From contig CAJTEA010000002.1 in assembly GCA_910575265.1 (NCBI GenBank), positions 125,503 to 189,502 of the forward strand: a DNA stretch of 64,000 nucleotides, given 5' to 3'. Numbering within the stretch: position 1 is the first letter of the stretch; the number at the start of each line of letters is the position of its first letter. Shown one piece after another: positions 4,429 to 30,642 of the stretch. The notes under the pieces were generated by a model. The model ran no database searches. It worked only from the letters and a program-made list of their open reading frames with translations, and had not been told where the DNA came from. A program made the position numbers and the translations under genes. The DNA comes from Oscillospiraceae bacterium (GTDB lineage Bacteria; Bacillota; Clostridia; Oscillospirales; Oscillospiraceae).

Positions 4429-4481
4429 AATACGGCAAATCACAAAACCGCCGGGAAACCGGCAGGGAAAGGACTGGAATC

Positions 4482-5126: not shown

Positions 5127-5140
5127 TAACACCAACAGCC

Positions 5141-5173: not shown

Positions 5174-5184
5174 GTCAGGCGCGG

Positions 5185-5211
5185 GCCGGGACGTTTCGTC
5201 CCGGCTCTTTT
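5185..5211 (+). terminator. deoC terminator 2 (tandem)
   Basis: GCCGGGACG (5185-5193), loop TTT, CGTCCCGGC (5197-5205), then TCTTTT. A second strong hairpin 12 bp after the first isolates dpaA from deoC. Confidence 0.75.
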
Positions 5212-5217
5212 CATTGC

Positions 5218-5245
5218 ACCACCTCCCCGCGCTCCCCATACAATG
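5218..5245 (+). promoter_or_regulatory. mother-cell sporulation promoter (sigma-E/K type) for dpaAB
   Basis: CATACAATG at 5237-5245 fits the -10 shared by sigma-K (CATAnnnTA) and sigma-E (CATACAnT). The AC at 5218-5219 sits at a sigma-K-like -35 distance. No good sigma-A hexamers are seen here. dpaAB is a known mother-cell target in other spore formers. The call rests on a short match. Confidence 0.45.
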
Positions 5246-5292
5246 GGAGTAGAAACCCACCGCCCTCCGGGCGGTTCTGGAGGTATTGTCCT

Positions 5293-6168: not shown

Positions 6169-6224
6169 CGCCGGGGCGGTCCGCGGCCGCTCGCGCGTTA
6201 TCGCTGACAGAAAGGGAGATTCTT

Positions 6225-6803: not shown

Positions 6804-6820
6804 AACCGCATTTTTCTCAA

Positions 6821-6853
6821 AAAAGCAGGCCATCTCAAAGACGGCCTGCTTTT
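6821..6853. terminator. bidirectional terminator between dpaB and the small protein gene
   Basis: AAAAGCAGGCC (6821-6831) and GGCCTGCTTTT (6843-6853) form a perfect 11-bp stem with A/T tails on both sides, suited to the convergent genes. Confidence 0.88.
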
Positions 6854-6854
6854 C

Positions 6855-7022
6855 CTATCCCTGTGTTTCCTTCTTGTAGAGCGCATTAAGCGAAAGTTCT
6901 CCAGCCAATTTGAACAAAGCGTCCGTAGCAACCTGTTCTGCTGAAAGCCCACCCGCATGCTCTCCCACTTTTTGATAGAACTGATACACAGTATCTTCCA
7001 AATTAATAGTAATTTTTTTCAT
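6855..7022 (-). CDS. small conserved-type protein, 55 aa, function unknown
   Basis: Starts MKKITINLEDTVYQFYQKVG and continues with SAEQVATDALFKLAGELS. The start (ATG 7020-7022) is set by AAAGGTGA just upstream. The opening beta-strand, followed by a helix and a second helix, resembles ribbon-helix-helix DNA-binding or antitoxin-like proteins, but I cannot name a family. It is divergent from an XRE regulator gene across a region with palindromes, so the two may be a regulatory or toxin-antitoxin-like pair. That is inference from layout. No toxin was identified. Confidence 0.6.
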   Translation of the reverse strand: MKKITINLEDTVYQFYQKVGEHAGGLSAEQVATDALFKLAGELSLNALYKKETQG

Positions 7023-7042
7023 CTCAGTCACCTTTACAGAAC

Positions 7043-7071
7043 AGTATACCATAGTTTTTTGTATTACGCAA
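7043..7071 (-). promoter_or_regulatory. promoter of the small protein gene
   Basis: On the minus strand TTGCGT (7066-7071), 17 bp, TATACT (7043-7048). Its -35 is inside the dyad at 7065-7078. Confidence 0.6.
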
Positions 7072-7083
7072 GTGCGTATACGC
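7065..7083. promoter_or_regulatory. overlapping palindromes, likely operator
   Basis: TACGCA-AG-TGCGTA (7065-7078) and GCGTATACGC (7074-7083) are two overlapping dyads sharing TGCGTA. They cover the -35 of the leftward promoter, which fits binding by the adjacent XRE regulator. Confidence 0.5.
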
Positions 7084-7124
7084 CGATGCGGAAATACGAA
7101 TAGTATGTGTTTGAGGTGGTCAAT

Positions 7125-7367
7125 TTGTCAGTGAAAGACGCTGTTGCGAATCGTTTTCTGGATTTGTGTGAAACGCGCGGACTCAAAGCGAATGAACTTG
7201 CCACATTATCCGGTGTTACGCCATCAACAGTCTACAGTATGCTGGATAACAGGCGAAGGGATGTATCTATTATCACCATCAAAAAACTTTGTGATGGTCT
7301 GGATATCACTCTGGGAGAGTTTTTCTCCTCGCCGATTTTTGACAGTCTGGAACAGGAAATCAAATAG
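7125..7367 (+). CDS. XRE-family helix-turn-helix regulator, 80 aa
   Basis: A short DNA-binding protein made almost entirely of a Cro/C1 helix-turn-helix: LDLCETRGLKANELATLSGV, TPSTVYSMLDNRRRDVSIIT, then KKLCDGLDITLGEFF. I chose TTG 7125 because GAGGTGG lies 5-8 bases ahead; a GTG at 7107 would put that site inside the gene. It is divergent from the 55-aa protein and probably regulates it and itself through the palindromes at 7065-7083. No effector domain is present. Confidence 0.82.
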   Translation: MSVKDAVANRFLDLCETRGLKANELATLSGVTPSTVYSMLDNRRRDVSIITIKKLCDGLDITLGEFFSSPIFDSLEQEIK

Positions 7368-7380
7368 GACACAAAAATAT

Positions 7381-7407
7381 CCCCGCCCATCTTTCTGACA
7401 GGCGGGG
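7381..7407 (-). terminator. terminator of the transketolase genes (also usable by the XRE gene)
   Basis: CCCCGCC (7381-7387) and GGCGGGG (7401-7407) form a 7-bp stem. On the minus strand it is followed by ATATTTTT, and on the plus strand by a weaker TATTTG. Confidence 0.7.
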
Positions 7408-7421
7408 TATTTGCATCGTTT

Positions 7422-8366
7422 TTATTTCCCGCAGAAGTCCTTAGCGGTTTCCACGATGTGCTCCGCGGACAGGCCGAACTGCTTGAGCAGGGCGGCGGCG
7501 GGACCGGAGTGGCCGAACTCGTCGTTGACACCGACGCGGCGCACCGGGGTGGGGCACTTTTCGCTGAGCAGGGCGCACACCGCCTCGCCCAGGCCGCCGA
7601 TGACCGAGTGCTCCTCGCAGGTAATCACCCTGCCGCACTCCTGGGCGGCCTTGAGAACCAGCGCCTCGTCCAGGGGCTTGATGGTGCACAGGTTGATGAC
7701 CCGGGCGGAGATGCCAGCCTCCTTCAGGGTCCTGCCCGCCTCAATGGCCTCGTTGACCAGCAGGCCGTTGGCGATAATGGCCACGTCGGACCCGTCCTGG
7801 AGGACCTCGCCCTTGCCGATCTCGAATTTGAAGGCCGCCTCGTCATGGAATACGGGGACGGCCAGCCGGCCGAAGCGCAGATAGACAGGGCCTTTGTGCT
7901 CATAGGCGGCCCTGACGGCGGCCCTGGCCTCCACATCGTCGGAGGGGGACATGACCACCATGCCGGGGATGGAGCGCATCAGGGCAAAATCCTCACAGCA
8001 CTGGTGGGAAGCCCCGTCCTCACCCACAGAGATGCCGCCGTGGGTGGCGCCGATCTTCACATTGAGATGGGGATAGCCGATGGAGTTGCGCACCTGCTCA
8101 AAGGCCCGGCCGGCGGCGAACATGGCAAAGGAGGAGGCGAAGGGCACCAGCCCCATGGCGGCGGCTCCAGCGGCCACGGCGATCATGTTGCCCTCGGCGA
8201 TGCCGCAGTTAAAGTGCCGGTTGGGGAACACCTTCTTAAAGGCGCCGGTTTTGGTGGCGCCCGCCAAGTCGGCGTCAAACACGATCAGGTCCTCATGCTC
8301 CGCGCCCAGAGCGGCCAGGGCCGCGCCGTAGCTGTCCCGGGTGGCAATTTTTTTCACGTCCGCCAT
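7422..8366 (-). CDS. transketolase C-terminal half (split transketolase)
   Basis: The pyrimidine-binding plus C-terminal domains of transketolase as a separate 314-residue protein. It partners the N-terminal half encoded one base upstream. Visible motifs are NCGIAEGNMIAVAAGAAAMG, with the glutamate that activates the thiamine ring, FASSFAMFAAGRAFEQVRN, and GEDGASHQCCEDFALMRSIPG. Together the halves move two-carbon units between sugar phosphates in the non-oxidative pentose phosphate pathway. This makes erythrose-4-phosphate for the shikimate operon at 11.4 kb. Split transketolases are common in Clostridia and archaea. Length is normal for this half. Confidence 0.95.
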   Translation of the reverse strand: MADVKKIATRDSYGAALAALGAEHEDLIVFDADLAGATKTGAFKKVFPNRHFNCGIAEGNMIAVAAGAAAMGLVPFASSFAMFAAGRAFEQVRNSIGYPHLNVKIGATHGGISVGEDGASHQCCEDFALMRSIPGMVVMSPSDDVEARAAVRAAYEHKGPVYLRFGRLAVPVFHDEAAFKFEIGKGEVLQDGSDVAIIANGLLVNEAIEAGRTLKEAGISARVINLCTIKPLDEALVLKAAQECGRVITCEEHSVIGGLGEAVCALLSEKCPTPVRRVGVNDEFGHSGPAAALLKQFGLSAEHIVETAKDFCGK

Positions 8367-8367
8367 G

Positions 8368-9213
8368 TTACATCCCCTCCACTTCCGCCAGCTGGGCTCT
8401 CAGCTCAGCCATGGCTTTCTCATACTCCTCGTCGTTGGGGGCCTTGCCGTGCCAGCCGGCCTGGCCCTCCATGTAGCTGACACCCTTGCCCTTGGTGGTC
8501 TTCATCACGATGGCTGTGGGAACGCCTTTTGTCTCTCTCGCTTTGGCAAAGGCCGCCTCCATCCGCTCAAAGTCATGGCCGTCGATCTCCGCCACCGACC
8601 AGCCGAAGGCCCGCAGCTTGTCCACAATGGGGTAGGGACTCATCACATCGTCAATTCTGCCGTCAATTTGCAGGCCGTTGTTGTCAATCACAGCGCAGAG
8701 GTTGTCCAGCTTGTAGTGGTGGGCCAGCATGAAGGCCTCCCACACCTGGCCCTCCTGAATCTCGCCGTCGCCCAGCAGGGCGTACACCCGGCAGCCCTTT
8801 CCCTGGTGCTTAGCGGCCAGAGCCATGCCAGCGGCGGCGGAAATGCCCTGTCCCAGAGAGCCGGTGGACATGTCCACACCGGGAACGGTATTCATGTTGG
8901 GGTGGCCCTGGAGGTAGCTGTCGATGTGCCGCAGGGTGGGCAGGTCCTCCACCGGGAAAAATCCCCGGTTAGCCAGGGCGGCGTACAGCCCGGGGGCCGT
9001 GTGTCCCTTGGACAGGACAAACCGGTCCCGCTCCTCCCATTTGGGGTTCTTTGGGTCAATGTTCATCTCCTTGAAGTAGAGATAGGCGAACAGATCAGCG
9101 GCGGACAGGCTTCCGCCCGGATGCCCCGCCTTGGCCCCATGGGTGCCCTCAATGACCCCCATACGTACCTTGCAGGCCGCAGCCATCAGCTGCTTTTTTT
9201 CACTGGCTGTCAT
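8368..9213 (-). CDS. transketolase N-terminal half (split transketolase)
   Basis: The thiamine-diphosphate/Mg-binding domain as a 281-residue protein. Motifs: GHPGGSLSAADLFAYLY, RDRFVLSKGHTAPGLYAAL, GSLGQGISAAAGMALAAK, and GDGEIQEGQVWEAFMLAHHY followed by IDNNG, the ThDP motif GDG...NN. AAAGGAGAG sits upstream of the ATG. It is the first gene of a two-gene operon with the C-terminal half, whose start is one base after this stop. A TATAAT-type promoter lies about 50 bp upstream. Confidence 0.95.
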   Translation of the reverse strand: MTASEKKQLMAAACKVRMGVIEGTHGAKAGHPGGSLSAADLFAYLYFKEMNIDPKNPKWEERDRFVLSKGHTAPGLYAALANRGFFPVEDLPTLRHIDSYLQGHPNMNTVPGVDMSTGSLGQGISAAAGMALAAKHQGKGCRVYALLGDGEIQEGQVWEAFMLAHHYKLDNLCAVIDNNGLQIDGRIDDVMSPYPIVDKLRAFGWSVAEIDGHDFERMEAAFAKARETKGVPTAIVMKTTKGKGVSYMEGQAGWHGKAPNDEEYEKAMAELRAQLAEVEGM

Positions 9214-9258
9214 AACGCTCTCCTTTATGTAAAATTTTTCATCGGTTCCGCTGGCTCC

Positions 9259-9287
9259 ATTATAGTGCAGTCAGCGGAAAAATACAA
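9259..9287 (-). promoter_or_regulatory. promoter of the transketolase operon
   Basis: Minus strand TTGTAT (9282-9287), 17 bp, TATAAT (9259-9264). Confidence 0.65.
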
Positions 9288-9387
9288 GGGAAAAACGCAC
9301 AGATCCATCCCGGCCGCCCCCGCTGAAGCCGCGCGTTTCCCCGCCAAAAAATCCCCGGTATAAAATAAAATTTTTTCAAAAAAGGTA

Positions 9388-9416
9388 TTGCTTTTTTCCC
9401 TCCGGCGTGGTATCAT
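9388..9416 (+). promoter_or_regulatory. promoter of the tRNA-Pro gene
   Basis: TTGCTT (9388-9393), 17 bp, TATCAT (9411-9416), 35 bp before the tRNA 5' end. Confidence 0.6.
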
Positions 9417-9451
9417 ACATAAGCTGTCTGGTGAACAGCACTGGTTAATTC

Positions 9452-9528
9452 CCGGGTGTGGCGAAGTTTGGTATCGCGCTTGAATGGGGTTCAAGAGGCC
9501 GCTGGTTCGAATCCAGTCACTCGGACCA
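9452..9528 (+). tRNA. tRNA-Pro (anticodon GGG), CCA encoded
   Basis: A full 77-base cloverleaf. The acceptor is CCGGGTG/CACTCGG with one G-U pair and discriminator A plus CCA. The D-arm is GCGA/TCGC. The anticodon arm is CTTGA/TCAAG with loop ATGGGGT (anticodon GGG at 9486-9488). The T-arm is GCTGG/CCAGT with loop TTCGAAT. It is a lone tRNA with its own promoter and terminator. I see no integrase or attachment-site repeat beside it. Confidence 0.95.
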
Positions 9529-9533
9529 AATAT

Positions 9534-9592
9534 GCAGAACGCTTTCGGTGCCGTAGGCTTGAACGCCTACGGCACCAGGCGTTTCTGCTTTT
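9534..9592 (+). terminator. long bipartite terminator after tRNA-Pro
   Basis: Outer arms GCAGAACGC (9534-9542) and GCGTTTCTGC (9579-9588) enclose a perfect 12-bp stem, GGTGCCGTAGGC/GCCTACGGCACC, with a six-base loop. Four T follow. It isolates the tRNA from the MATE gene at 9681. Confidence 0.8.
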
Positions 9593-9680
9593 CTCAGGTT
9601 TGCTTGTCTGACAAAACGCTCTTCAACGCGCCCGGCCGGGTGTCTTGAGGGGCGTATGGTTTTGAGAGGAAGCGTATCAT

Positions 9681-11096
9681 ATGAAAAAGAATCACAGCAT
9701 TGACATGTGTAGCGGGTCGCTGGCGGACAAGATTCTGCTGTTTGCTCTGCCGCTGATGGCCTCCAGCCTGCTCCAGCTGCTGTTCAACGCGGCGGACGTG
9801 GTGGTGGTGGGCCGGTTCGCCGGCAAGGAGGCCCTGGCCGCCGTAGGGTCCAACACCTCCCTCATCAATCTGACGATCAACCTGTTCGTGGGCCTGTCGG
9901 TGGGCACCAATGTGGTGGTAGCCCGGGACCTGGGAGCGGGGCGGCACGACAACGTAAGCCGCAGCGTCCACACCGCCCTGACTCTGGCCCTGGCCAGCGG
10001 TGTGGCCATGATGGTTTTCGGCGCGGTGATGGTCCGGCAGCTGCTGGAGTGGATGTCCTCCCCCACCGATGTCATCGACCTGGCCACCGTGTACCTGCGC
10101 GTCTATTTTCTGGGCATGCCCGCCAATCTGGTGTACAACTTCGGCGCGGCCATCCTCCGGGCCCAGGGAGACACCCAGCGGTCGCTGTATTACCTTACCT
10201 TTGCCGGGGTGGTCAACGTACTGCTCAATCTGTTCTTTGTCATCGCCCTGCGTATGGACGTGACCGGCGTGGCCCTGGCCACCATCATCGCCCAGTACAT
10301 CTCCGCCGCCCTGGTGATGCGGTGCCTGACGCGGGAAACTGGCCCGCTCCATCTGAATCTGAGGCAGCTGGGGCTGCGGTGGCGGGTCGTCCGGCAAATC
10401 CTTCAGGTAGGCCTGCCCGCCGGGTTTCAGGGCATGGTGTTTTCCCTGTCCAATGTGGTGATCCAGTCTTCCCTCAACTCCTTTGACGACGCCGTGCTGG
10501 TGGCCGGCTCCGCCGCCGGCTCGAACATCGAAACATTTGTCTATGTCTCTATGAATGCCTTTCATCAGGCCGCTATCACCTTTGTGGGGCAAAACTACGG
10601 CTCCGGTCAGTGCGGCCGCGTGGACAAGGTAGCCCGCCAGTGCGTGGGCTTCGCGACCCTGTTCGGCATTGCCTTTGGCAATCTGGCCTATCTCTTCGGC
10701 CGGCAGCTGGCCGGCATCTACGCCCCGGGAGAGCCCGAGGTGATTGAACAGGCCCTGGCGCGGATGATGTTTATCTGCTGCCCCTACTTTATCTGCGGCA
10801 TTATGGACGCTCTGGTAGGCGTGCTGCGGGGACTGGGCAGCTCAGTAATCCCCATGATTACCTCCATCGTAGGCGCCTGCGGCCTGCGGCTGCTGTGGGT
10901 AGCGGTAATCTTCCCCGTCTATCACACGCCCTCCTCCCTGTATCTGTCCTACCCCGTCTCCTGGTCCATCACCGCGCTGTTTCATCTTCTGTTCCTGCTG
11001 GTGGTGGTCCGCCCAAGGGCCTTCGCCAAAGCGCGGAGCAACGGCCCCGCCTATCTGTCCACCGAGGGCCGGCACCCGGAACCGACAAAAAAGTGA
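9681..11096 (+). CDS. second MATE family exporter
   Basis: A 471-residue, 12-segment membrane protein opening with CSGSLADKILLFALPLMASS and LLQLLFNAADVVVVGRFAGK, the MATE signature. The AGGNAG-like ribosome site GAGAGGAAG precedes ATG 9681. It is only moderately similar to the MATE at 1573 and is not a recent tandem copy. The substrate is unknown. No regulator is adjacent; it lies between tRNA-Pro and the aromatic amino acid operon and ends about 100 bp before the latter's leader. Confidence 0.92.
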   Translation: MKKNHSIDMCSGSLADKILLFALPLMASSLLQLLFNAADVVVVGRFAGKEALAAVGSNTSLINLTINLFVGLSVGTNVVVARDLGAGRHDNVSRSVHTALTLALASGVAMMVFGAVMVRQLLEWMSSPTDVIDLATVYLRVYFLGMPANLVYNFGAAILRAQGDTQRSLYYLTFAGVVNVLLNLFFVIALRMDVTGVALATIIAQYISAALVMRCLTRETGPLHLNLRQLGLRWRVVRQILQVGLPAGFQGMVFSLSNVVIQSSLNSFDDAVLVAGSAAGSNIETFVYVSMNAFHQAAITFVGQNYGSGQCGRVDKVARQCVGFATLFGIAFGNLAYLFGRQLAGIYAPGEPEVIEQALARMMFICCPYFICGIMDALVGVLRGLGSSVIPMITSIVGACGLRLLWVAVIFPVYHTPSSLYLSYPVSWSITALFHLLFLLVVVRPRAFAKARSNGPAYLSTEGRHPEPTKK

Positions 11097-11128
11097 GAAA
11101 AAATTGATATAATTTTATATAATCTGAC

Positions 11129-11159
11129 CATTCACTTTTCTCCGGTGAAGTGGTATCCT
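11129..11159 (+). promoter_or_regulatory. promoter and inverted repeat ahead of the aromatic operon leader
   Basis: TTCACT (11131-11136), 17 bp, TATCCT (11154-11159) lies 35 bp before the leader peptide. CCATTCAC and GTGAAGTGG form an imperfect inverted repeat inside it. TATAAT-like strings also lie upstream at 11108-11123, so the exact promoter is uncertain. Confidence 0.4.
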
Positions 11160-11193
11160 GTGTATAGTCTTTGAGGAAACGAGGAATCAGGCC

Positions 11194-11298
11194 ATGACCA
11201 GCACCAACCGCGGCCTCAGCTTTGAATACCGCTATTTTAGCTTTACCTACTTTGTGGGCAAGGCTTATTTCGGTTTGGCTGAATGTGCGGAGAGGTAG
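11194..11298 (+). CDS. Phe/Tyr-rich leader peptide, 34 aa (attenuator)
   Basis: ATG at 11194 with GAGGA eight bases upstream; TAG at 11296-11298. The peptide begins MTSTNRGLS, continues FEYRYFSFTYFVGKAYFG, and ends LAECAER. Five Phe and four Tyr fall within residues 10-26. A protein coding for little but Phe and Tyr, directly ahead of a terminator and the operon that makes Phe and Tyr, has the logic of pheL/pheA-type attenuation. When charged tRNA-Phe or tRNA-Tyr is scarce the ribosome stalls, changing the downstream RNA fold. Too short for most gene callers. Confidence 0.85.
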   Translation: MTSTNRGLSFEYRYFSFTYFVGKAYFGLAECAER

Positions 11299-11300
11299 AC

Positions 11301-11319
11301 CTGGTTTTCTCAAAACCAG
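11301..11319 (+). promoter_or_regulatory. leader hairpin just after the leader stop codon
   Basis: CTGGTTTT-CTC-AAAACCAG, a perfect 8-bp stem starting two bases after the leader peptide stop. A ribosome finishing the leader would cover its left arm. It can also compete with the terminator base: GGTTT can pair with AAACC at 11331-11335. Confidence 0.6.
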
Positions 11320-11330
11320 TTCGCGTGACG

Positions 11331-11360
11331 AAACCGCGGCCGGACCGGCCGCGGTTTTTT
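11331..11360 (+). terminator. attenuator terminator of the aromatic amino acid operon
   Basis: AAACCGCGGCCGG pairs with CCGGCCGCGGTTT around a central A, followed by a T run. The 10-mer AACCGCGGCC in its left arm is repeated in leader codons 5-8 (11206-11215). CGGTTT at 11271-11276 is complementary to its base AAACCG. Mutually exclusive folds are therefore possible. Placed between leader peptide and aroF. Confidence 0.88.
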
Positions 11361-11391
11361 GCATGCGTTTTATGTTTAGGAGGAGACTGTT

Positions 11392-12411
11392 ATGATCGTT
11401 ATATTAAAGCGCGACCACAACCCGGAGCAGCTGGAGAGTCTGGTCAACTGGCTCCAGGAGAAGGGGATCGCCATCCACACCAGCATTGGCGAGGCCAACA
11501 CCATCCTGGGCCTGGTGGGCGACACCTCCAAGCTGGACATCGACCTGATCGCCGCTCTGGACATCGTGGAGGATGTGAAGCGGGTCCAGGAGCCTTATAA
11601 GAACGCCAACCGGAAGTTCCACCCCGAGGATACGGTGATTCCGGTGCGGGACACCTGGATCGGCGGCGGGAGCCTGACCATCATGGCCGGCCCCTGCTCG
11701 GTGGAGAGCGAGGAACAGGTGGTGGCCATCGCCAGGGCGGTGAAGGCCAGCGGCGCCACCATGCTCCGGGGAGGCGCCTTCAAGCCCCGTACCTCCCCTT
11801 ACGCCTTCCAGGGCCTGGGGGAAACCGGCCTGGAGTATCTCAAGGCCGCCCGGGCGGAAACCGGCCTGCCCATTGTCACCGAGCTGATGGACATCACCCA
11901 GCTGCCCCTGTTCAAGGATGTGGACGTCATTCAGATCGGCGCCCGAAACATGCAGAACTTCGATCTGCTCAAGGCGGTGGGCCATCAGGATAAGCCCGTG
12001 ATGATCAAGCGGGGCATGTCCGCCACCTATGAGGAGTGGCTGATGAGCGCCGAATACGTCATGGCGGGGGGCAACGAGAACGTGATTCTCTGTGAGCGGG
12101 GCATCCGCACCTTTGAGAGCTACACCCGCAACACCCTGGATCTGGCGGCCATCCCCGTTCTGCGCAAGCTGACCCATCTGCCCATCATCGTGGACCCCAG
12201 CCACGCCACTGGAAAATACTGGCTGGTAGAGCCGCTGGCCATGGCCGCGGTGGCCGCGGGGGCGGACGGCCTACAAATCGAGGTCCACAACGACCCGGAG
12301 CATGCCCTGTGCGACGGCCCCCAGTCGCTGAAGCCGGACACCTTTGACCCTCTGGCGCGTAAGCTGCTGTCGCTCCACTCTGTGGTCAGCGGGCTGGAGG
12401 GGCAGGCATGA
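11392..12411 (+). CDS. aroF: DAHP synthase (3-deoxy-7-phosphoheptulonate synthase)
   Basis: First step of the shikimate pathway: erythrose-4-phosphate plus PEP to DAHP. The 339-residue type I-beta enzyme has a short ferredoxin-like N-terminal regulatory domain (residues 1-70) and a catalytic barrel with [43 protein letters not shown], and DPSHATGK near the end. AGGAGGA precedes the ATG. It is the first gene of an eight-gene operon behind the Phe/Tyr leader and terminator. tyrA overlaps its stop by four bases. Confidence 0.97.
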
Positions 12412-13244
12412 GGGTAGGAATTGTGGGCCTGGGCCTGATGGGGGGCTCTATGGCCAAGAGTGTGAAAACCCGGACCAGCCACACCGTCTATGGCATCGAC
12501 CTGGACCAGGAGACCATGATGCTGGCCCGGCTGTGCGGCGCTATTGATGGTCCTCTGGACGAGACGACCCTGCCCCAGTGTGATCTGGTCCTGGTGGCCA
12601 TCCGCCCCCAGGCGGCGGTGGACTGGACGCGGGCTCACGGGGCGCAGATCGGCAAGTCCGCCATTCTGGTGGACCTGTGCGGCGTCAAACGGGTGGTGGT
12701 GGAGCAGATCGCCCCCATCGCGGAAGAGCACGGCTTCGCCTATATCGGCGGCCACCCCATGGCCGGCCGGGAGCGGGGCGGCTTTACCTCCTCCTCCGAC
12801 GACCTGTATGTGGGGGCCTCCATGATCCTCACCCCGGACAAACGGACGGATATGAAGCTGCTGGAGACCTTGCAGAGCTTTTTCCTGGACGTGGGCTTCG
12901 CCAAGCTCACCTTCTCCCAGCCGGAGGAGCACGACCGGATTATCGCCTTCACCTCCCAGCTGGCCCACATTGTATCCAGCGCCTACGTCAAGTCGCCGGA
13001 GGCCCAGCGCCGCCGGGGCTTCTCCGCCGGGAGCTTCCGGGATATGACCCGGGTGGCCCGGCTGGACGAGGACATGTGGACCGAGCTGTTTCTGGACGAC
13101 GCCGACTATCTGACCAAAGAGCTGGGTATTCTCATCGGCCACCTGGAGGACTACCGGAAGGCCCTGGAGGCCAAAGACGCCCAGCGGCTCCACGCCCTGC
13201 TGAAGGAGGGCCGGGAGCTGAAAGCCACCGCCGGCGGCAACTGA
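12408..13244 (+). CDS. tyrA: prephenate dehydrogenase
   Basis: Converts prephenate to 4-hydroxyphenylpyruvate, the tyrosine branch. The 278-residue protein has the N-terminal NAD-binding [16 protein letters not shown], then [12 protein letters not shown] (active-site histidine region), and [18 protein letters not shown]. There is no C-terminal ACT domain, so feedback by tyrosine would have to act elsewhere. Translationally coupled to aroF through an ATGA overlap; aroB begins 18 bp after its stop. Confidence 0.95.
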
Positions 13245-22527: not shown

Positions 22528-22568
22528 CACTTTTCTTTACAGGTGGTGTATATTTTTTTGCTTGGATT

Positions 22569-22620
22569 TAAAAAACCGGCAAAAGAGGCACAGCCGTCTG
22601 GCAGCCATGCCTCCTTTGCC
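22569..22620 (-). terminator. rdrB terminator
   Basis: On the minus strand GGCAAAGGAGGCA and TGCCTCTTTTGCC pair (one G-U), followed by GGTTTTTT, 23 bp after the rdrB stop. It separates the RADAR genes from the DinJ-like gene. Confidence 0.85.
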
Positions 22621-22642
22621 GTTCAGATTTGCGCGGAAACGC

Positions 22643-25318
22643 CTACCGCCGCCCGCGTCCCGACAGCCGCCAACAGCGGCCGCGGTAAAAAACCCGGTCG
22701 TCTCTCTCCGCTGGACAGATGGAGTTCTGTCTGTTCTCATCCGGTTCGAGCCGCTGAAAGATCTGGTCCAGCCCCATTTTTCGGACGTTTTCCAGGTAGA
22801 GATAGATGGAGTTGCTGGTGTATTTCCGGTTTCCATCCTCCCGGGCCTGGTCCAGGCTGGCGGCTATCACCGCGTATTCATTTTCCAGGGATGTGTCAAA
22901 CACGCCGGAATCGTCTGTGTTGATGGAAACGGAGAGCTGCGCGCTGGGTTCATAGGAGCCGTCGGCCCTGGTCAGTCCCACGTTGTTAAACCGGAAAATA
23001 GGGTGCATGTCGTACCGGCGGAAGGTTCCAATCAGATAGTTCGAGGTGGGGTTGCACTCGATCATGATCCCCTTCTCCATCAGCTCCTCCGCCAGCCTGT
23101 CCTGCACCCCGCGGATCAGCTCGATATACTCTCCGCTGACGGAGAATTCCTGAATCTGACGTCCCTTTTGTCTGACCTTCCCGTCAAAGTGATAGCGCCG
23201 GCACAGCTCCTGAATCGTGTCGGAGCTTCGATAGGTTTCCAGCTCTCTCCCCTCGTCCTTCCAATAGGCGTTGTGGGAGACGTCCTTCAGCAGCGGATGG
23301 AGCTCCTTCCCGCTGTACAGCTCAGGCGCGTCTCCCCGAAGCCGCATCGAGCAGTAGTACTCATACAGCCTGGGCGTCAGGTTCACCCCGTTCATACAGT
23401 TTCCATACAGCTCGGACAAATAGCGGTCCGCCTGTGTTTTCAGCATCGCGTGCAGCTTTGGGGAGACGGAAACGCCCAGCTCCTGGGCGCGGTAAAACAG
23501 CCACACCAGATTGTCCAGCAGGTCCTGCTTGCACAGCACCGACCGGCGCTGCTTATATGCGTAGTGAACCGCGGGGTCCACTCCCAGGGCCAGGGCGTGA
23601 CCCAGCCGGTCGCCGCGGTTCAGATGAAGAAACCGCACCGCCTCGTCGATGGCTCTGAGGCCATCGGCCATATCCAGAAAGTCCTCCCCCGCGTGATAGG
23701 TCACCTGAATATGGGGCCGGGCGGGCGTTACGCCAAAGCGCTCCTTCCCCCGCAGCGGCGGAAGGTCTCTCAGATAGCGGAACTCAACGGCAAAGGTCTC
23801 AGGCCGGCAGCCGATTTCGATATTCGCCGCGTCGATTCCCCGAACCAGGCCGCTGAACCGGGGGTAGTGCTGAAGCGCGTACCCCAGCGCTCTGGCGCTC
23901 CGCCGGCTGGAAGCCCGAATACCGTAGTTGCGCGGCTGTACCAGAAACTGGCCGCGGGGCAGCTCGCCCAAATCCGGGGCCTTGATAAAGTGGTACACGA
24001 AAAAATGCTGGCGGGCGGCGGACGGCGCCTCCGTCCGCGCATATTCGATCTGCGCCTCATAATCCAGCACCTGCCGGTACATTTTCACCGCGGAATCTTT
24101 GGGGGCGATCCGGGCCTCGAAGCTCACAATGTTCTGGCCGCTCTGATTCGCGTTGACGGACAGGCGGACGGACTCGGCGTGGTATCCCGCGATGCCGTCA
24201 TAAATCCCGTCCTTCCGATCCTGGTAGTTTTTAAAATTCTGAAATCCTGTCTGGCGGTTGACCTGGATAAGCTCAGCCCGGAAATTTTCCTTCAGCAGGA
24301 GGTATAAGTAGAACCAGTCCTGTTCATCGGAGTTCAGGGTGCCGTCAAAGCAGGCCCGAAAACCGCGGTAAAGAAAGCCGCGTTCCCCCGAGAGCAGACG
24401 GTTGTGGTTCTCCAGCAGCCCGTTTTTGCAGTCCACCCTCCGCAGAGCGTAATCCAGAATAAAATCGGAGCCGCCCCGCTGGGGCACTCTTGCCCCAAAA
24501 CAGGGTCGCACATAAGCCAGAGCCTGTTTTACACTGTGCGGAGCGTAGAAGCTGGCCCGGTCCATATCCAGTGAATCCTCCTGGCCCAACCCCTCCAGCC
24601 GCAGAAAAAGCTTTACCCGCAGGAAGGCGGCCCAGTACAGCCGGCGCTCCCAGGACCACACGTTGCCGGATGTGCCCCGGGAGTAATTTGCCTGAAGGTT
24701 TTGCTTCATCTGCCTGGTGGCCAGACGAATCGTATGGGGATAGTTCATAAGGCAGGCCCAGGACAGGGGAAAGTTCTGGGAGGTGCCGCCGAGATGGCAG
24801 TGATTTTCCGCAATGCCCTGCCGAAGCAGCGCGTTCAATTGGACGTTGTCCGTCTTGAGCACCGGGTCCCAGACAAATTCGCCGCGGGGCGGGTAGCCGC
24901 GGCGCAGGTCCTCACAAGCCAGAAACGCCGTAGTGAAGAGATCCTGTCCCAGCTTCTGATAGATGCTCTGCCAAGCCAGCAGCTGGGAAAACCGGCAGAC
25001 CGGCGCGTCATTGAATACCCGGAACACCCGCCGTCCCAGCTCGACCAGAAGGTAGAACACAGAGGGCGCGGAGGGGATGCGCGAGGGGTCCGGCGTCATG
25101 GTTGACCCCAGCAGCTGGCGCACTCCCTCCACCTCCTCATAGGAGCCGAAGGGATACTGCGCGTAGGCCAGCCCCTGGTAGGCGTCAGAACTGATGCGCG
25201 AAACAGAGACCTCCGGCTGGCGAACGCTCAGCCTCCGTTTGCCGGCAATGCTCTGAAACAGCAGCTCCGGCTGAACGCCGCGAAACACAATCTCCAGATT
25301 TTTTTGCAGAGTATCCAC
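22643..25318 (-). CDS. rdrB: RADAR adenosine deaminase RdrB
   Basis: An 891-residue divergent adenosine deaminase, more than twice the size of housekeeping ADA. All catalytic elements are present and far apart: HCHLGG (173-178, metal-binding HxH), YHAGE (541-545, with metal His542 and catalytic Glu545), RLGHAL (571-576), IECNPTSN (753-760), and NTDDSGVF (800-807) with the metal/catalytic aspartates. The size, large insertions and 21-base spacing to an ~900-aa ATPase match RdrB of RADAR, the anti-phage system that deaminates adenosine nucleotides or RNA. It starts with GTG after GGGAGG. A terminator follows. Confidence 0.9.
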   Translation of the reverse strand: MDTLQKNLEIVFRGVQPELLFQSIAGKRRLSVRQPEVSVSRISSDAYQGLAYAQYPFGSYEEVEGVRQLLGSTMTPDPSRIPSAPSVFYLLVELGRRVFRVFNDAPVCRFSQLLAWQSIYQKLGQDLFTTAFLACEDLRRGYPPRGEFVWDPVLKTDNVQLNALLRQGIAENHCHLGGTSQNFPLSWACLMNYPHTIRLATRQMKQNLQANYSRGTSGNVWSWERRLYWAAFLRVKLFLRLEGLGQEDSLDMDRASFYAPHSVKQALAYVRPCFGARVPQRGGSDFILDYALRRVDCKNGLLENHNRLLSGERGFLYRGFRACFDGTLNSDEQDWFYLYLLLKENFRAELIQVNRQTGFQNFKNYQDRKDGIYDGIAGYHAESVRLSVNANQSGQNIVSFEARIAPKDSAVKMYRQVLDYEAQIEYARTEAPSAARQHFFVYHFIKAPDLGELPRGQFLVQPRNYGIRASSRRSARALGYALQHYPRFSGLVRGIDAANIEIGCRPETFAVEFRYLRDLPPLRGKERFGVTPARPHIQVTYHAGEDFLDMADGLRAIDEAVRFLHLNRGDRLGHALALGVDPAVHYAYKQRRSVLCKQDLLDNLVWLFYRAQELGVSVSPKLHAMLKTQADRYLSELYGNCMNGVNLTPRLYEYYCSMRLRGDAPELYSGKELHPLLKDVSHNAYWKDEGRELETYRSSDTIQELCRRYHFDGKVRQKGRQIQEFSVSGEYIELIRGVQDRLAEELMEKGIMIECNPTSNYLIGTFRRYDMHPIFRFNNVGLTRADGSYEPSAQLSVSINTDDSGVFDTSLENEYAVIAASLDQAREDGNRKYTSNSIYLYLENVRKMGLDQIFQRLEPDENRQNSICPAERDDRVFYRGRCWRLSGRGRR

Positions 25319-25339
25319 CCAGCGGCGCCTCCCTTCCTG

Positions 25340-28075
25340 TTATTCCGGTTCGCCTGTGATGGTAGTAAGTTTCTCCAGAACGCTTGTCCCTGTTTGTTGT
25401 TCGCCACTCTCCGGCTTGGCCTGACCGTTTGTGGTTTTGTCTTCTCCCTGATGTTCACTTCCATCCTCTGGCGCCGATTCTGTTTCCGGCTCGTCTTTGG
25501 GCGGCAGCTTATAGGTCACGCCAGCGCTCAAATTTGATATGATATCCTTCCATTGTTCCGGATTCTCCGACGCCTCGACACTCATCGCCTTCAAAGGTTT
25601 CAGCCACCCGGAGAAGTCAATTTTTTTGAGAAATGCAATCGGTTGTAATTCGCCAAGGGATTTCGCCATTTTGGTATACAAGTCCGTGATACTGTTAATC
25701 CATTCTTCGTAACTTATGTTTGTGGAATCACCATCTGGTTCTGCCGCGGGCTCAGAAGCGCGAATTATTTCCAGCAGCGCCGCGCCCATCTTCATCTGCA
25801 CATCACAGTTCAGGACTGTGGTCAACGCGCTGTTTCCCATACTATGCCAGTTGTCCAAGCCGATCTTATCCACAGTCAGCGAATCCGCATCGGAAATGGC
25901 GGCGGAAAAGGGGGTGCAGCCATTTTTATCTCCCACATACAGGCAGTTTGTAATCGGTTTGATGAGGTCCAGCCAGATTCCATTCTCACTGCCCGAAACC
26001 TGATAATCCGCCGCCATGGAATAAAGCAGAGTGCCACATTGCTTCAATTTGGGTAAACACGCGGAAAATGAAGGTCTGGTTTCCAAGAACCATGTTACTC
26101 TCAGCGCCTGACGGTTATTTTCTTTTTTATCGGAACCGGTAGGCGACAGCTTGACCACTATAGCTTCGTCCCTGCTGCCGTTGTGATAGGGGAACAGGCG
26201 GGACCCGAACAGCAGATACAGCCTGGAAAACGAGCAGCCCAGGCCGGTATTGTCCGAATCGTACTGAGAGCAGCCTTCGCTCTGTCCCGTGTCGCCGTCC
26301 GCCTTTGGCGTATTCCTCATTCGGAGGGCATAGTCATCGTAGTAATCAATCAGATCCTCCAGGGCCAGCGTATGGGCCAGCAGGGAGCAGTAGGTCTGAA
26401 GGGCGAAGGCCAGGCGTTTCAGGTCCTCATCCCAGGAGTGTTCAATGATGTCCCGGCACCTGGCCACCATATCCGCGTACCGGTCCCACAGCGGGCTTTT
26501 TTCCCGTTCATTCAGCTGGACGCAAATATAGCGGATACGGTCCGCCACATCAATCCGCTCCAGCTCTCTGAGCACCCGCACAGACTGGTCGCTCAAGCTG
26601 TTGATTGCCCAAGTGTCCAGAAAATAGTTCCGAAATCGCTGGACATTTTGCAGCCGGGTGCGCAGCTTCTCCCGGTGGGTGTCATAGGTATTCACGGCGT
26701 CCGGAGCCTTCAGGAAAAAGCATGGCTCCTCCGCGTCCGGGTCCTCCACATCCTCCATCTGAATCAGCATGGACAAAAAGTGAGCCAGCAGCCGCATGTT
26801 GCAGGGGATGATGGGGTGGAGTCTGTGCTCCCGCTTCAGAAATACCATACCGGTCTTTCGATAAATCAGACGAAAAATTTGATCCTGAGGGCTGGGAAAC
26901 TCCTGTTTCTTCTCGTCCGGAAGAATATCCTTTTCCGGCGTACGGTAGCGGATGGTGATGTTCTCCGTATGCTCCTTAAAATAGGTCCCCAGCGCGGGCA
27001 GGTTGATTTGACGCGTCTGGGGAAACAGCTTGGTAATGTACTGATGCGTGATTTTCTCCACATACTCCTGCCGGGACCCCAGCCCCTTGTTGTAATCCTT
27101 GAGAAGGCTGCTCTCCACCACTTGCATCAAATGTTTCAGATCCGCCGCCATGATGATAATCACCCGAGGAATGACCAGATAGCGCCGTATGTCCTCCAGA
27201 ATCGCATAGGCCTGTTTGATATTCATATCAGTATCGTCAATCTGGAGCACCAGATACGAGAATTCCCCCGCCTCCGGACAGCAGAACTTCAGCAGCTGCC
27301 CGACCAGCCCATACAGCTCCACCTTCAGGCAGGAGCTATCGCCCAGCTCCGCCAGCGTGTCAAGTCCCTCATACTCCGGCTTTGGCTCACTGCCCTTTTT
27401 GATGGCCTGAATATGCTCATAACAGGTGGAGAATTTCTGGATCAGCTGGTTTTTTTCATCCAGCCGCCGCGCGGAGGACTCCCGTCCCATCGGCGCGGGA
27501 CCCTCCTCCCAGATACTGGCCGCCAGCCGGAACATGCGCGCCAGAATGACCGTCAGGATCTGCCCGTCTTTTTCCAATACGGTGGGATCGATGGGGGCCA
27601 GATCCAAAAATCTACAGGTTTGCAGCATACGCTTGACCGCTGGGGCATCCACATTTGGCAGCTCACACGCGACCATTGCGGACAGAAACTCGTCCTGAAA
27701 CAGCAATCCCTTGCTGTCCTTCAGGCTGCTGACAAACGTCAGCATCGCGCTGCTTTTTCCGGCTCCGCGTTCCCCGGAAAATACGATCATATTATTCGGG
27801 TAGTCATAAAGGTACTGGCTGTCGCAGGCAATGCGAAGATCATCCTCAACCCCCGCGGTATTGCCGCCGCCCTCCCGCCGCGCAACCTGCTTTGATTTGG
27901 AAAAAAAGGAATCATATGTATAGTTGTGCTCATGCATCGCGCTGGCCCGGACAATCTCCGCCACTCCCGCCAGCGCCTGCCGGTACGCCTCATAAAACAG
28001 GGAGCGCTTCTCGCCGGCCCTGGCGACCCGGATGCGTTTCTCCGCGTCCCACCAGAAGGATATTTCTTTTCCCAT
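25340..28075 (-). CDS. rdrA: RADAR ATPase RdrA
   Basis: A 911-residue P-loop ATPase. Walker A is SGERGAGKSSAM (residues 100-111). Walker B is YLVLQIDDTD (274-283), followed by a sensor-like VIIIMAADLKHLMQ (305-318). The long C-terminal half has no motif I know and ends in a Glu/Pro/Gly-rich tail. In RADAR, RdrA forms a ring that works with RdrB to trigger adenosine deamination on infection; that role is assigned by family and by operon with rdrB. AGAGAGGAA precedes the ATG. A promoter and hairpin lie between it and the upstream PRTase-like gene. Confidence 0.88.
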   Translation of the reverse strand: MGKEISFWWDAEKRIRVARAGEKRSLFYEAYRQALAGVAEIVRASAMHEHNYTYDSFFSKSKQVARREGGGNTAGVEDDLRIACDSQYLYDYPNNMIVFSGERGAGKSSAMLTFVSSLKDSKGLLFQDEFLSAMVACELPNVDAPAVKRMLQTCRFLDLAPIDPTVLEKDGQILTVILARMFRLAASIWEEGPAPMGRESSARRLDEKNQLIQKFSTCYEHIQAIKKGSEPKPEYEGLDTLAELGDSSCLKVELYGLVGQLLKFCCPEAGEFSYLVLQIDDTDMNIKQAYAILEDIRRYLVIPRVIIIMAADLKHLMQVVESSLLKDYNKGLGSRQEYVEKITHQYITKLFPQTRQINLPALGTYFKEHTENITIRYRTPEKDILPDEKKQEFPSPQDQIFRLIYRKTGMVFLKREHRLHPIIPCNMRLLAHFLSMLIQMEDVEDPDAEEPCFFLKAPDAVNTYDTHREKLRTRLQNVQRFRNYFLDTWAINSLSDQSVRVLRELERIDVADRIRYICVQLNEREKSPLWDRYADMVARCRDIIEHSWDEDLKRLAFALQTYCSLLAHTLALEDLIDYYDDYALRMRNTPKADGDTGQSEGCSQYDSDNTGLGCSFSRLYLLFGSRLFPYHNGSRDEAIVVKLSPTGSDKKENNRQALRVTWFLETRPSFSACLPKLKQCGTLLYSMAADYQVSGSENGIWLDLIKPITNCLYVGDKNGCTPFSAAISDADSLTVDKIGLDNWHSMGNSALTTVLNCDVQMKMGAALLEIIRASEPAAEPDGDSTNISYEEWINSITDLYTKMAKSLGELQPIAFLKKIDFSGWLKPLKAMSVEASENPEQWKDIISNLSAGVTYKLPPKDEPETESAPEDGSEHQGEDKTTNGQAKPESGEQQTGTSVLEKLTTITGEPE

Positions 28076-28114
28076 CGCCTGTTCCTCTCTTTCTTTTGAT
28101 CAGGCCTCCACCTG

Positions 28115-28157
28115 CAAAAACAATAATAAGGCTGATTTGATTTTCAGCCTTATTATT
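28115..28157 (-). terminator. terminator/attenuator hairpin between PRTase-like gene and rdrA
   Basis: On the minus strand AATAATAAGGCTGA and TCAGCCTTATTATT form a perfect 14-bp stem followed by GTTTTTG, 39 bp after the PRTase-like stop and about 47 bp before rdrA. It should end most transcripts from upstream. Confidence 0.85.
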
Positions 28158-28183
28158 ATAAGCGATAAAATTGTTCGGCGCAA
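28155..28183 (-). promoter_or_regulatory. promoter of rdrA-rdrB
   Basis: Minus strand TTGCGC (28178-28183), 17 bp, TATAAT (28155-28160). The -10 overlaps the first bases of the terminator hairpin, so rdrAB transcripts would start inside its left arm and lack a full hairpin. This lets rdrAB be made independently of the upstream gene. Confidence 0.6.
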
Positions 28184-28196
28184 CCTACCAGAACAT

Positions 28197-29966
28197 TCAC
28201 GGCTCCCTGAACTCAGGCAAATCCCTCCAGTTCAGCATAGAGTCCACAATCATCTGATTCTCTGAAATCAGCCGCGCAAAATATCTGGCATTGCGGATCA
28301 TGGTCGCGTTTTTCCCTTCCGGGTCGCCTCCAAAAATCATTTCTTTGAAAAAGTACTCCACACGGTCCGGAAAATCCTGATCCCGCCAGTAAAGCTGGGC
28401 CAGCAGGAAAAACTGCCGGTAATACCTGGACAGCTTTCTTGGCATAATGGCCAAAGACATCTCAGTTGTCCGGACCGAGGAGTAAAAGACCGTCTGTCCG
28501 TTACAACGCTTGGACCGGGCTTTCACAGAGATATCTCCCAAATCCATCATCTGTGTCAGGCAGGACAGAACGGGGAGCATCGACACGATATCTCCCTGAA
28601 TTCCGGCCCAACTCTCCACCCGGGACAGAAAGCTGCCCAGCTCCTGCTCCCCTGTCCGGTTGACATGGAGGTCTTCGCTGGGAGCGTCGCTGGGACGGTA
28701 CTGCTTCTGTCCCGCCGCGTCCCGTTCATGATCCACCGCCTGTTTATAGACCAGGCACTCCACGCCGTTTACCGTTGACTGATAGTCCAGTTCGGTCACT
28801 GCCGCCGGCGGCGCGATCATATCCGACCTATCCGGAAATCCCAGGCAGTCCAGAATCGCGATCAGCTGCTTCTCATTCCACCGGATACGGCAGAACTGGT
28901 TTAAAATGGGTTCCATGCCCTTCTCAAAGTTGCGGCTTATCTTTTCCGTATCATAAATCAGCTGCGCTTCCATCTTCGAGTCAAGGTTCTCAAAGAACAC
29001 GCTCAGCGTGATTTGAGACAACAGCAAAAAGGTAAACTGCGCATATACCATCAGCCGGGAAGGACATTCCTTTATGCGGTTCAACAGATTGATACACTTG
29101 TTTGTCATCCTCAGGTTCTGCTTGGAAGAAACCTCAAAGATTGCCAGCAGCACACGGATCACCTGTCCCGCATTGAGCTCCGGCATAAAGAAATACGGTG
29201 TAAAGTATTGAAAACCCTGCTTCACATAGCTCCGCACGCTGGGATAGACCCCGGCTTTTGGAGATAAGCGGAACAAATAGAAGGAATAGCGGTAATGATT
29301 ATCCCGGTACCGCAGGCTGTCGTCCACAACCCAGGACATTACGTTGGGCTGACCGTGATACGTCCCCCGCTTCAGCTTGGCGGATATCACATAAGACGTA
29401 TTGGCCACGTCCCGGTCCGAAATGGTCTTCGCGATGGAGTCGGAGAGACAACGCCACTGACTGTTGGACAGCATTTGCGGACAGCGCATGGTCCACTGAA
29501 ATTCGTGCCGCAGCAGAATAGGCGCGTCGTTCATCGCGTAAATCCACAGACTGACGCTCCGGTTAAAGGCCTCTTCCACATCCTCTCCGGCGTCAATGCC
29601 CAGTTGAGACAGGCATTGGCTGACTGTGCTCCACAGCTGCGTCAGGAGCAGATTCATATTCCGCCCGTAGACCAGAATATCGTCCAGGATGGCAATTTTG
29701 GGAAAGCACTCATTCATCTTATAGAACCTGGCAATCTCCTCCGCCTGAAGCAGCAGTCCGTTCTCTGTGATATACTTCGACAAAATGTCAGGATAGCCGG
29801 CGCGGACAATCTCTAAAAAATTAGAGGCCCGCCGGGTTGTGGCAACCACATATCGATAATTGTGACAGCATATCCGCTTAGCCAATCGACGGAACTTCGA
29901 GATGATGTCCTTGTGGCTGGGTTCATTCTGTAAACTGGAATCAAACTGGCTTTCGCTTAAACTCAT
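28197..29966 (-). CDS. phosphoribosyltransferase-like protein upstream of RADAR genes
   Basis: A 589-residue protein. Around residues 88-104 it reads CFPKIAILDDILVYGRN, which fits the PRPP-binding loop of type I phosphoribosyltransferases (four hydrophobic residues, DD, then a small-residue turn). Before it lies a plausible alpha/beta N-terminal half (YRYVVATTRRASNFLE). The remaining ~450 residues are helical and unrecognised, with several Cys and Trp. Large PRTase-like proteins occur in bacterial conflict systems, so a sensor or nucleotide-chemistry role with RADAR is possible (inference). Start ATG 29966 is set by GGAGGTG. Direction and position suggest a defence-island partner. Confidence 0.6.
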   Translation of the reverse strand: MSLSESQFDSSLQNEPSHKDIISKFRRLAKRICCHNYRYVVATTRRASNFLEIVRAGYPDILSKYITENGLLLQAEEIARFYKMNECFPKIAILDDILVYGRNMNLLLTQLWSTVSQCLSQLGIDAGEDVEEAFNRSVSLWIYAMNDAPILLRHEFQWTMRCPQMLSNSQWRCLSDSIAKTISDRDVANTSYVISAKLKRGTYHGQPNVMSWVVDDSLRYRDNHYRYSFYLFRLSPKAGVYPSVRSYVKQGFQYFTPYFFMPELNAGQVIRVLLAIFEVSSKQNLRMTNKCINLLNRIKECPSRLMVYAQFTFLLLSQITLSVFFENLDSKMEAQLIYDTEKISRNFEKGMEPILNQFCRIRWNEKQLIAILDCLGFPDRSDMIAPPAAVTELDYQSTVNGVECLVYKQAVDHERDAAGQKQYRPSDAPSEDLHVNRTGEQELGSFLSRVESWAGIQGDIVSMLPVLSCLTQMMDLGDISVKARSKRCNGQTVFYSSVRTTEMSLAIMPRKLSRYYRQFFLLAQLYWRDQDFPDRVEYFFKEMIFGGDPEGKNATMIRNARYFARLISENQMIVDSMLNWRDLPEFREP

Positions 29967-30015
29967 AGACATCACCTCCACACATTCGGATTCATCGGTG
30001 AAGCATGCCAGAAAA

Positions 30016-30043
30016 ATGAACGCGCCATGAACAAATCATGAAC
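30016..30043 (-). repeat. three GTTCAT direct repeats spaced 11 bp
   Basis: On the minus strand GTTCAT occurs at 30038-30043, 30027-30032 and 30016-30021, each start exactly 11 bp apart. They lie 21-48 bp downstream of the -10 of the promoter for the PRTase-like gene. One-turn spacing puts all copies on one DNA face, as for a cooperatively bound regulator. Confidence 0.65.
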
Positions 30044-30063
30044 AAACCGCAACGCACTGGTCA

Positions 30064-30092
30064 ATTCTACCATAAAAACCCGGTCCCGTCAA
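30064..30092 (-). promoter_or_regulatory. promoter of the PRTase-like defence gene
   Basis: Minus strand TTGACG (30087-30092), 17 bp, TAGAAT (30064-30069). Start codon about 98 bp downstream. Confidence 0.75.
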
Positions 30093-30197
30093 TCAATTTC
30101 ATGCAAAATTTCAAAAAATTTAACTGCTTGGCGGTGCCGCCAGTTATAATATTCCCGGGACAAGCCCCATTATAACCTTCCGCAAAAAATCATAAGG

Positions 30198-30228
30198 AAA
30201 ACCCCAAAACCATGGGCTTCGGGGTTTT
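30198..30228 (-). terminator. rpsI terminator
   Basis: On the minus strand AAAACCCC...GGGGTTTT with extra A-T pairs inside, ending in a T run, 10 bp after the rpsI stop. Confidence 0.8.
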
Positions 30229-30237
30229 GAAAGCTTG

Positions 30238-30642
30238 TTAACGCTTGGAGAACTGAGGCGCGCGGCGGGCGGCCTTCAAGCCGTACTTCTTGCGCTCCTT
30301 CATGCGAGGGTCACGGGTCAGGAAGCCAGCGGCCTTCAGGGCAGGACGATACTCAGCATTGGCCAGCAGCAGAGCGCGGGCAATGCCGTGACGGATCGCG
30401 CCGGCCTGACCGGTAACACCGCCGCCGGTGACAGTGGCCACCACGTCCACCTTGCCAACCTGCTCGGTGGTGACCAGGGGCTGACGGACGATGAGCTTCA
30501 GGGTATCCAGACCGAAATAGTCGTCGATGTCGCGGCCATTGATGGTAATGGCGCCGGTGCCGTTCTCAAACAGGTGGACGCGGGCCACAGAGGACTTCCG
30601 GCGGCCAGTGCCATAGAAATAAGGCTTCTTGCTCTTATACAT
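30238..30642 (-). CDS. rpsI: 30S ribosomal protein S9
   Basis: Small-subunit protein whose C-terminal tail reaches the P-site tRNA. The 134-residue protein shows [13 protein letters not shown] at the start, [20 protein letters not shown] in the middle, and the invariant C-terminal [16 protein letters not shown]-type sequence ([18 protein letters not shown]) is also present. Second gene of the conserved rplM-rpsI operon, 14 bp after rplM. GGAGG precedes its ATG. Normal in all respects. Confidence 0.98.

Follow-up and report, generated by a model that had tools for sequence, protein, structure and literature searches.

A phosphoribosyltransferase-like protein encoded directly upstream of rdrA is a candidate third component of a divergent RADAR subtype

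The window, the whole 64,000-nucleotide stretch of DNA analysed here, carries a gene, hereafter PRT, directly upstream of a divergent and intact-looking RADAR pair, rdrA-rdrB (Table 1). Our tentative reading, to which we give a probability of roughly 0.4, is that PRT would serve one RADAR subtype as its dedicated third component, a phosphoribosyltransferase (PRTase)-like sensor of a nucleotide or of PRPP that gates RdrAB. The RADAR subtypes reported in PMC7699616 (in excerpt) have a Csx27 or a SLATT partner, and PRT would add a PRTase-like partner to these. How RADAR detects phage is treated as an open question in PMC9994260 (in excerpt), and PRT would be a concrete candidate for the sensor. 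The original prediction had described a 589-aa open reading frame with a PRPP-loop-like motif, co-oriented with and directly 5' of rdrA, and the ORF coordinates and the translation confirmed this. PRT is upstream, on the strand common to both genes, and the gap to rdrA is 121 bp; translation from the ATG gives 589 aa, and from an upstream GTG 594 aa. The G+C content is 0.52 in PRT, 0.54 in rdrA, 0.60 in rdrB and 0.60 in the whole window.

Table 1. Positions in the window of the cassette, its genes, the conserved motifs of PRT and transcription-signal-like sequences.
Feature	Position	Strand	Basis
Segment unmatched by relatives' DNA, with only PRT-rdrA-rdrB inside	22561..30191		comparison with same-genus genomes
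PRT, PRTase-like putative third RADAR gene, 589 aa	28197..29966	(-)	ORF and homologues in L103 and L122
PRPP-loop-like motif IAILDDILVYGRN, residues 91-103	29658..29696	(-)	D95, D96, G101 and R102 invariant in 3/3
Second conserved block VANTSYVISAKLK, residues 187-199	29370..29408	(-)	three-member alignment
rdrA, AAA+ ATPase, 911 aa	25340..28075	(-)	PADLOC and motifs; Walker A GERGAGKS, LVLQIDDTD
rdrB, adenosine-deaminase family, 891 aa	22643..25318	(-)	PADLOC and motifs; ENHCHL, HAGED, GDRLGHA, INTDD intact
Promoter-like site upstream of PRT, TTGACG-17-TAGAAT, TG before second hexamer	30064..30092	(-)	consensus scan
Promoter-like site just past PRT stop, TTGCGC-17-TATAAT	28155..28183	(-)	read from sequence; absent from consensus scan
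Perfect 14-bp inverted repeat, 8-nt loop, then GTTTTTGC, between PRT and rdrA	28122..28157	(-)	terminator-like by eye; absent from consensus scan
Intrinsic-terminator-like stem, 20 pairs, after rdrB	22577..22621	(-)	consensus scan

The rdrA-rdrB pair was recognised by PADLOC with E-values of 6.9e-12 (RdrA) and 2.2e-40 (RdrB). The NCBIfam RdrA and RdrB models also matched the pair with scores far under their cut-offs, and we therefore regard the RADAR of the window as divergent. The genes follow each other on the (-) strand, rdrA then rdrB, with a spacing of 21 bp. Like known RADAR, the window has rdrA next to rdrB and keeps the Walker A, Walker B-like and deaminase motifs intact; unlike it, the window has a PRTase-like gene upstream; a further difference from RADAR with Csx27 or SLATT is that the downstream genes of the window are a RelB-like and a flotillin gene, which are genus-conserved. 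RdrB residues H173, H175, H542, E545, H574, D802 and D803, which we take to be metal or active-site residues, were invariant across eight sequences. Since RdrA and RdrB of the window retain their active-site motifs, the effector arm is already present.

The N-terminal ~200 residues of PRT resemble phosphoribosyltransferases. A PRPP-like loop, DD-x(3)-[YH]-G-R with the acidic pair after a hydrophobic strand, was found in all three PRTs obtained (the window, L103 and L122), where it reads AILDDILVYGRN, VLIDDIMVYGRA and LIVDDLLLHGRG. A 12-position loop pattern occurred in none of 20,000 residue shuffles of the window PRT and in none of 20,000 of the L103 PRT, its specificity applying to these two members only, as L122 has His where the pattern wants T/S/Y/F; a shorter pattern occurred once in 20,000 shuffles of the window PRT. 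With the loop also kept in the two homologues, the motif noticed in the first reading was found to be non-accidental. Among 782 ORFs, pattern matches outside the PRT family comprised five distinct loops, all in loci retrieved with PRTase models. An arginine following the first hydrophobic strand, R45, was likewise invariant (YVVATTRRAS, YKVLLARGCS and YKVFMARRAF) and, by eye, occupies a position comparable with that of Arg-Gly in Hpt- and PyrR-like ORFs. The three PRTs share 52 invariant positions, 28 of them within the first 205 residues.

A profile of residues 1-205 was then compared with 700 ORFs, the nine loci holding PRT or window genes being excluded. Twenty-eight of these ORFs were labelled as PRTases by position, and the labels include wrong ORFs or false PRTases (at least L107, L108, L019 and L026). 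PRTase-labelled ORFs took 8 of the top 10 and 11 of the top 20 places (hypergeometric p = 6.4e-12; AUC 0.732, p = 1.6e-5), compared with 2 and 2 in a C-terminal control limited to the next 260 alignment columns (AUC 0.559, p = 0.14). A shuffled-column control gave 1 and 2 (AUC 0.644, p = 0.005), so part of the N-terminal signal is composition. The best of the 700 targets was L030, a 181-aa ORF with the loop DDVLYTGRT, which we take from its motif to be PyrR-like; the best single profile probability of the PRT N-terminus to a PRTase was 12%.

Type I PRTases (PF00156), with a PyrR-like ORF nearest, share with PRT the hhhDDhh-x-x-G-R loop, the profile enrichment and, by eye, an Arg that follows the first hydrophobic strand and precedes the loop by about 50 residues; they differ in that PRT is without the loop Thr/Ser and a PF00156 hit and has a long C-terminal domain. 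A PF00156 search of its own genome at E 1 marked nine places, PRT not among them, and searches of PRT against Pfam, PADLOC, NCBIfam, PHROGs and PDB sequences brought up nothing meaningful, scores of candidate PDB relatives being at chance level or absent. The known RADAR partner families Csx27 and SLATT were also unmatched (Pfam, PADLOC, NCBIfam). The PRTase-like part of the original prediction was upheld for the loop (3/3) and the N-terminal profile enrichment, and weakened by the unmatched PF00156, the absent loop Thr/Ser and the best probability of 12%. Two specific assignments were rejected. PRTase-CE proteins (PF24390) are associated with conflict systems and share a PRTase-type domain with PRT; PF24390 left PRT unmatched at E 1 and matched a same-genus gene at 2.4e-24. 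PADLOC, which presumably includes the type III retron PRTase effector, matched none of the three PRTs meaningfully, the two hits of L122 being at E 0.02. Retron PRTase and NDT proteins resemble PRT in that a PRTase-like protein is paired with a defence core, but the core of PRT is rdrA-rdrB.

In type I PRTases, the Thr/Ser residues of the PRPP loop bind the 5'-phosphate. These residues are absent in 3/3 PRTs (YGRN, YGRA and HGRG), which makes ordinary transferase activity of PRT uncertain. The loop was present in 17 of the 28 PRTase-labelled ORFs and carried [TS]G.[TS] in 14 of the 17; because the other three (L027, L111 and L114) deviate too, the altered loop of PRT, though unusual, does not prove that catalysis is lost. 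The linked nucleotide chemistry of the original prediction is left as a hypothesis: judged from these motifs, sensing or use of another substrate appears no less likely than ordinary PRPP transfer, and the contrast with 14/17 comparison loops counts for a sensor over an ordinary enzyme. The gate reading fits best, since PRT combines PRTase resemblance with an altered loop and sits fixed before rdrA. Its main rival is that PRT is a second effector beside RdrB, itself attacking nucleotides (for example by PRPP use, or by breakage or exchange of an N-glycosidic bond) and silent in healthy cells, because the type III retron PRTase is called an effector in PMC12548924 (in excerpt), where an NDT gene is also among the retron genes. 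Both loop Asp residues are retained in all three PRTs, one or both Thr/Ser are missing from some ordinary PRTase loops as well, and the corresponding slot of related RADARs holds proteins that combine TPR-like repeats with N-termini which are, by eye, Rossmann-like (L013, L014 and L015). The loss of the loop Thr/Ser in all members, the effector that RADAR already has and the lack of a meaningful PADLOC match for the three PRTs speak against it, and we consider a second effector possible, if on the doubtful side.

Relatives of PRT were scarce. Single-protein searches returned PRT itself alone from 60 relatives and 398 phylum genomes (E 0.001), no match from plasmid and phage records, 13 pattern stretches and no relatives from genome contigs, and one relative, perhaps near-identical to the window, from viral contigs. 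Because these searches yielded no usable relative, RADAR was used as the route to homologues. An RdrB alignment scan of genome contigs gave seven RADAR loci (L010-L016), tblastn against plasmids gave seven (L003-L009), and PRT was absent from both sets by phmmer. Viral contigs yielded no match to rdrA alone, and an alignment scan following RADAR gave L103, in which ORF 5645-7426, directly 5' of rdrA and rdrB, matches PRT at 3.5e-25; rdrB is incomplete at the contig end. RdrA-profile and PRT-profile scans returned only this already-known viral contig. In L105, a longer piece of it, contractile-phage tail genes were seen by eye directly before PRT-rdrA-rdrB (131-8758); the PRT-bearing RADAR subtype may be carried along by phages as cargo.

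Genomes were also searched without reference to RADAR by a two-sequence PRT profile (window and L103). This profile gave itself and one chance-like match in 329 phylum genomes, 0/7 in the genomes behind L010-L016, and 1/149 in relatives of the L010 genome, namely L122 (E 4.8e-24). The L122 PRT is a 680-codon frame directly 5' of rdrA and then rdrB, with 15 nt from its stop to the ATG. Upstream of it (1141-1950) lie, by eye, degraded Fic-like pieces with stops, and its RdrB (6769-9513) has GSRIGHA at the place of GDRLGHA in the window, L103, L010 and L011. A three-member profile found only the known locus itself and one chance-like match in 204 related genomes; genome look-ups came to at most about 2,000 in total, repeats included, besides the capped scans. 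The three members have frames of 589-680 aa, pairwise phmmer E-values of 5.6e-26, 3e-23 and 1.5e-16, and identities of 21-26%. Matches in 18 non-self genomes at E 0.007-0.35 were judged to be chance: two span the PRT loop region (L081 and L091, L081 without the loop), and the remaining ones fall on other parts of the protein, several interrupted by stops. A match in G355 (E 0.006, 64-aa frame) was likewise judged chance, and at the G897 match (E 0.001) the ORFs were unrelated by eye, one being cation-efflux-like.

The neighbourhoods of the homologues bore out the expected proximity to RADAR, as PRT lies directly upstream of rdrA-rdrB in 3/3 cases (window, L103 and L122), a small sample. As evidence for linkage L103 is biased because it was found through RdrB; for L122 the query was blind to RADAR and the sample was not, since the L010 genome at its centre came from RADAR. 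The three members occupy three settings, one chromosomal (window), one in a phage tail module (L103) and a further one in L122. That PRT is an unrelated gene which merely shares a common defence island with RADAR would agree with the existence of only three members and with its absence from 19/21 scanned RADAR loci. Against such an accident, slot and orientation are constant in 3/3 members at 21-26% identity across the three settings, L122, found by the PRT query alone, counts strongly, and RADAR is present in <1% of genomes (PMC9994260, in excerpt); we think there is little chance that this explanation holds.

The same absence from 19/21 loci, together with the window's terminator-like hairpin between PRT and rdrA, counts against PRT as a dedicated third component. 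PRT was present in 2/21 RADAR loci scanned by the PRT profile (window and L103), or 3/22 including L122, a count in which L104 is uninformative because the contig stops before rdrA, L011 shows only ~1.1 kb of upstream sequence, and L006 and L116-L118 are near-copies. A 13-row RdrB tree joined L010 to the three PRT-bearing loci at 93/96 and placed L011 as their sister at 90/92. Both branches stayed under the star level of the tool, and the L122 branch was long. Without L122, the window, L010 and L103 clustered at 98/98. When labels were shuffled, 113/500 arrangements were as tightly clustered as the PRT-bearing loci. PRT is not a general part of RADAR, and given its presence in 3/22 loci and the grouping in the RdrB tree, it may be a lineage-specific RADAR partner. 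L010 (5400-7700) is likewise of limited weight in the 3/22 count: roughly the first 110 codons of its rdrA are missing, Walker A with them, and the truncated gene adjoins an ORF for an unrelated secreted protein, which would be decay or an assembly joint.

Other genes were seen in the slot before rdrA. Two Lachnospiraceae loci carry related ~430-aa proteins of 33% identity directly 5' of rdrA (L013, 6144-7421; L014, 6122-7447); both have TPR matches, and the L014 frame overlaps rdrA. A Bacteroidales RADAR has a 459-aa protein there (L015, 5860-7239), which resembles designed TPR chains only weakly (best 0.0034) and has no Pfam hit. By eye, we take the N-termini of the L013 and L014 proteins to be Rossmann/TIR-like and that of L015 to be Rossmann- or NDT-like; library searches for such N-termini gave no confirming match for the three proteins. 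The L012 locus (2284-12652) has, by eye, hsdM, hsdS and hsdR-like genes and then rdrA-rdrB in one direction, and in L004-L009 annotation and ORF lists showed, by eye, no comparable gene directly 5' of rdrA. A broader and rather doubtful extension would be that the gene before rdrA in this RADAR clade is an exchangeable infection-sensing module, with a nucleotide-binding domain that differs by lineage (resembling a PRTase in PRT, and Rossmann-like with TPR in L013, L014 and L015), that reads the state of nucleotides or of the phage and that permits RdrA to turn on ATP deamination. If true, this module would be the missing trigger of RADAR.

Past the PRT stop, L103 has TTGACC-17-TATAAT at a place equivalent to that of the site in the window, and a T-tailed hairpin before rdrA; from these motifs, rdrAB of the window and of L103 may be transcribed separately from a promoter of their own. 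In L122 the three genes are packed operon-like behind TTGACA-17-TATAAT. The consensus scan of the region gave 6 promoter-like sites (4.6 expected from shuffles) and 11 terminator-like ones (8.2 expected), counts near those of shuffles. Terminator-like sequences also precede rdrA in PRT-less loci such as L003 and L004 (by eye); for this reason we read no regulation into the PRT-rdrA hairpin. It is highly improbable, in our view, that PRT is a PRTase-fold RNA-binding protein that decides, in the manner of PyrR, on transcription past the hairpin before rdrA. The PyrR-like L030 as the best of 700 profile matches and the T-tailed hairpins that separate PRT from rdrA in the window and L103 would suit such control, but the 15-nt gap of L122 leaves no room for a leader, PRT-less loci also have terminator-like sequences before rdrA, and PRT is roughly three times as long as the L030 ORF.

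The promoter-like sites bear on a further alternative, in which PRT guards the host by limiting self-damage from RADAR, binding or recycling inosine nucleotides or holding RdrB inactive in an antitoxin- or salvage-like manner. PRT is the first gene and has a promoter-like site, a promoter-like site for rdrAB follows PRT in the window and L103, and ITP accumulates and toxicity results when RdrB is overexpressed (PMC9994260, in excerpt). Standalone RADARs, however, function without PRT, and the PRT loop is unlike 14/17 comparison loops, so a guard role seems improbable to us.

We return to PRT as a sensor that gates RdrAB. According to the excerpt of PMC9994260, RdrB produces ITP and dITP, RdrA docks on RdrB, the C-terminal domain of RdrA is guessed to be a sensor, and RdrAB alone suffices for defence in E. 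coli. Under the proposed mechanism, the N-terminal ~200 residues of PRT would form a PRTase-like nucleotide-binding domain and the remaining ~390 residues a family-specific domain. PRT would bind PRPP or a nucleotide whose level shifts while a phage hijacks metabolism, and would relay the state of this ligand to the RdrA ATPase; RdrA-RdrB would then convert ATP and dATP to ITP and dITP solely during infection. That PRT binds a ligand, touches RdrA and acts as a gate is in each case inferred. The PMC literature searched, mostly titles and abstract openings with subscription papers mostly outside, held no link between phosphoribosyltransferases, RADAR and anti-phage defence, or between PRTases, adenosine deaminase and phage; one figure legend there names a PRTase.

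The three genes stand alone in a segment that relatives' DNA does not match. On one side, same-genus homology resumes at rpsI (~30192-30242) in 13/13 regions compared; on the other, it ends at ~22540-22560, at the RelB-like/flotillin pair, in the four relatives having the pair, the flotillin gene being found in 4/15 relatives searched (E 1e-30). The two flanking blocks are far apart in G006, with rpsI near 447 kb and flotillin near 2,917 kb. From these boundaries the segment would look like one acquired cassette, and two acquisitions could also have produced it. After rplM-rpsI (30192-30242), the downstream genes vary among same-genus genomes (11 regions, by eye), and this place is possibly an insertion hot spot.
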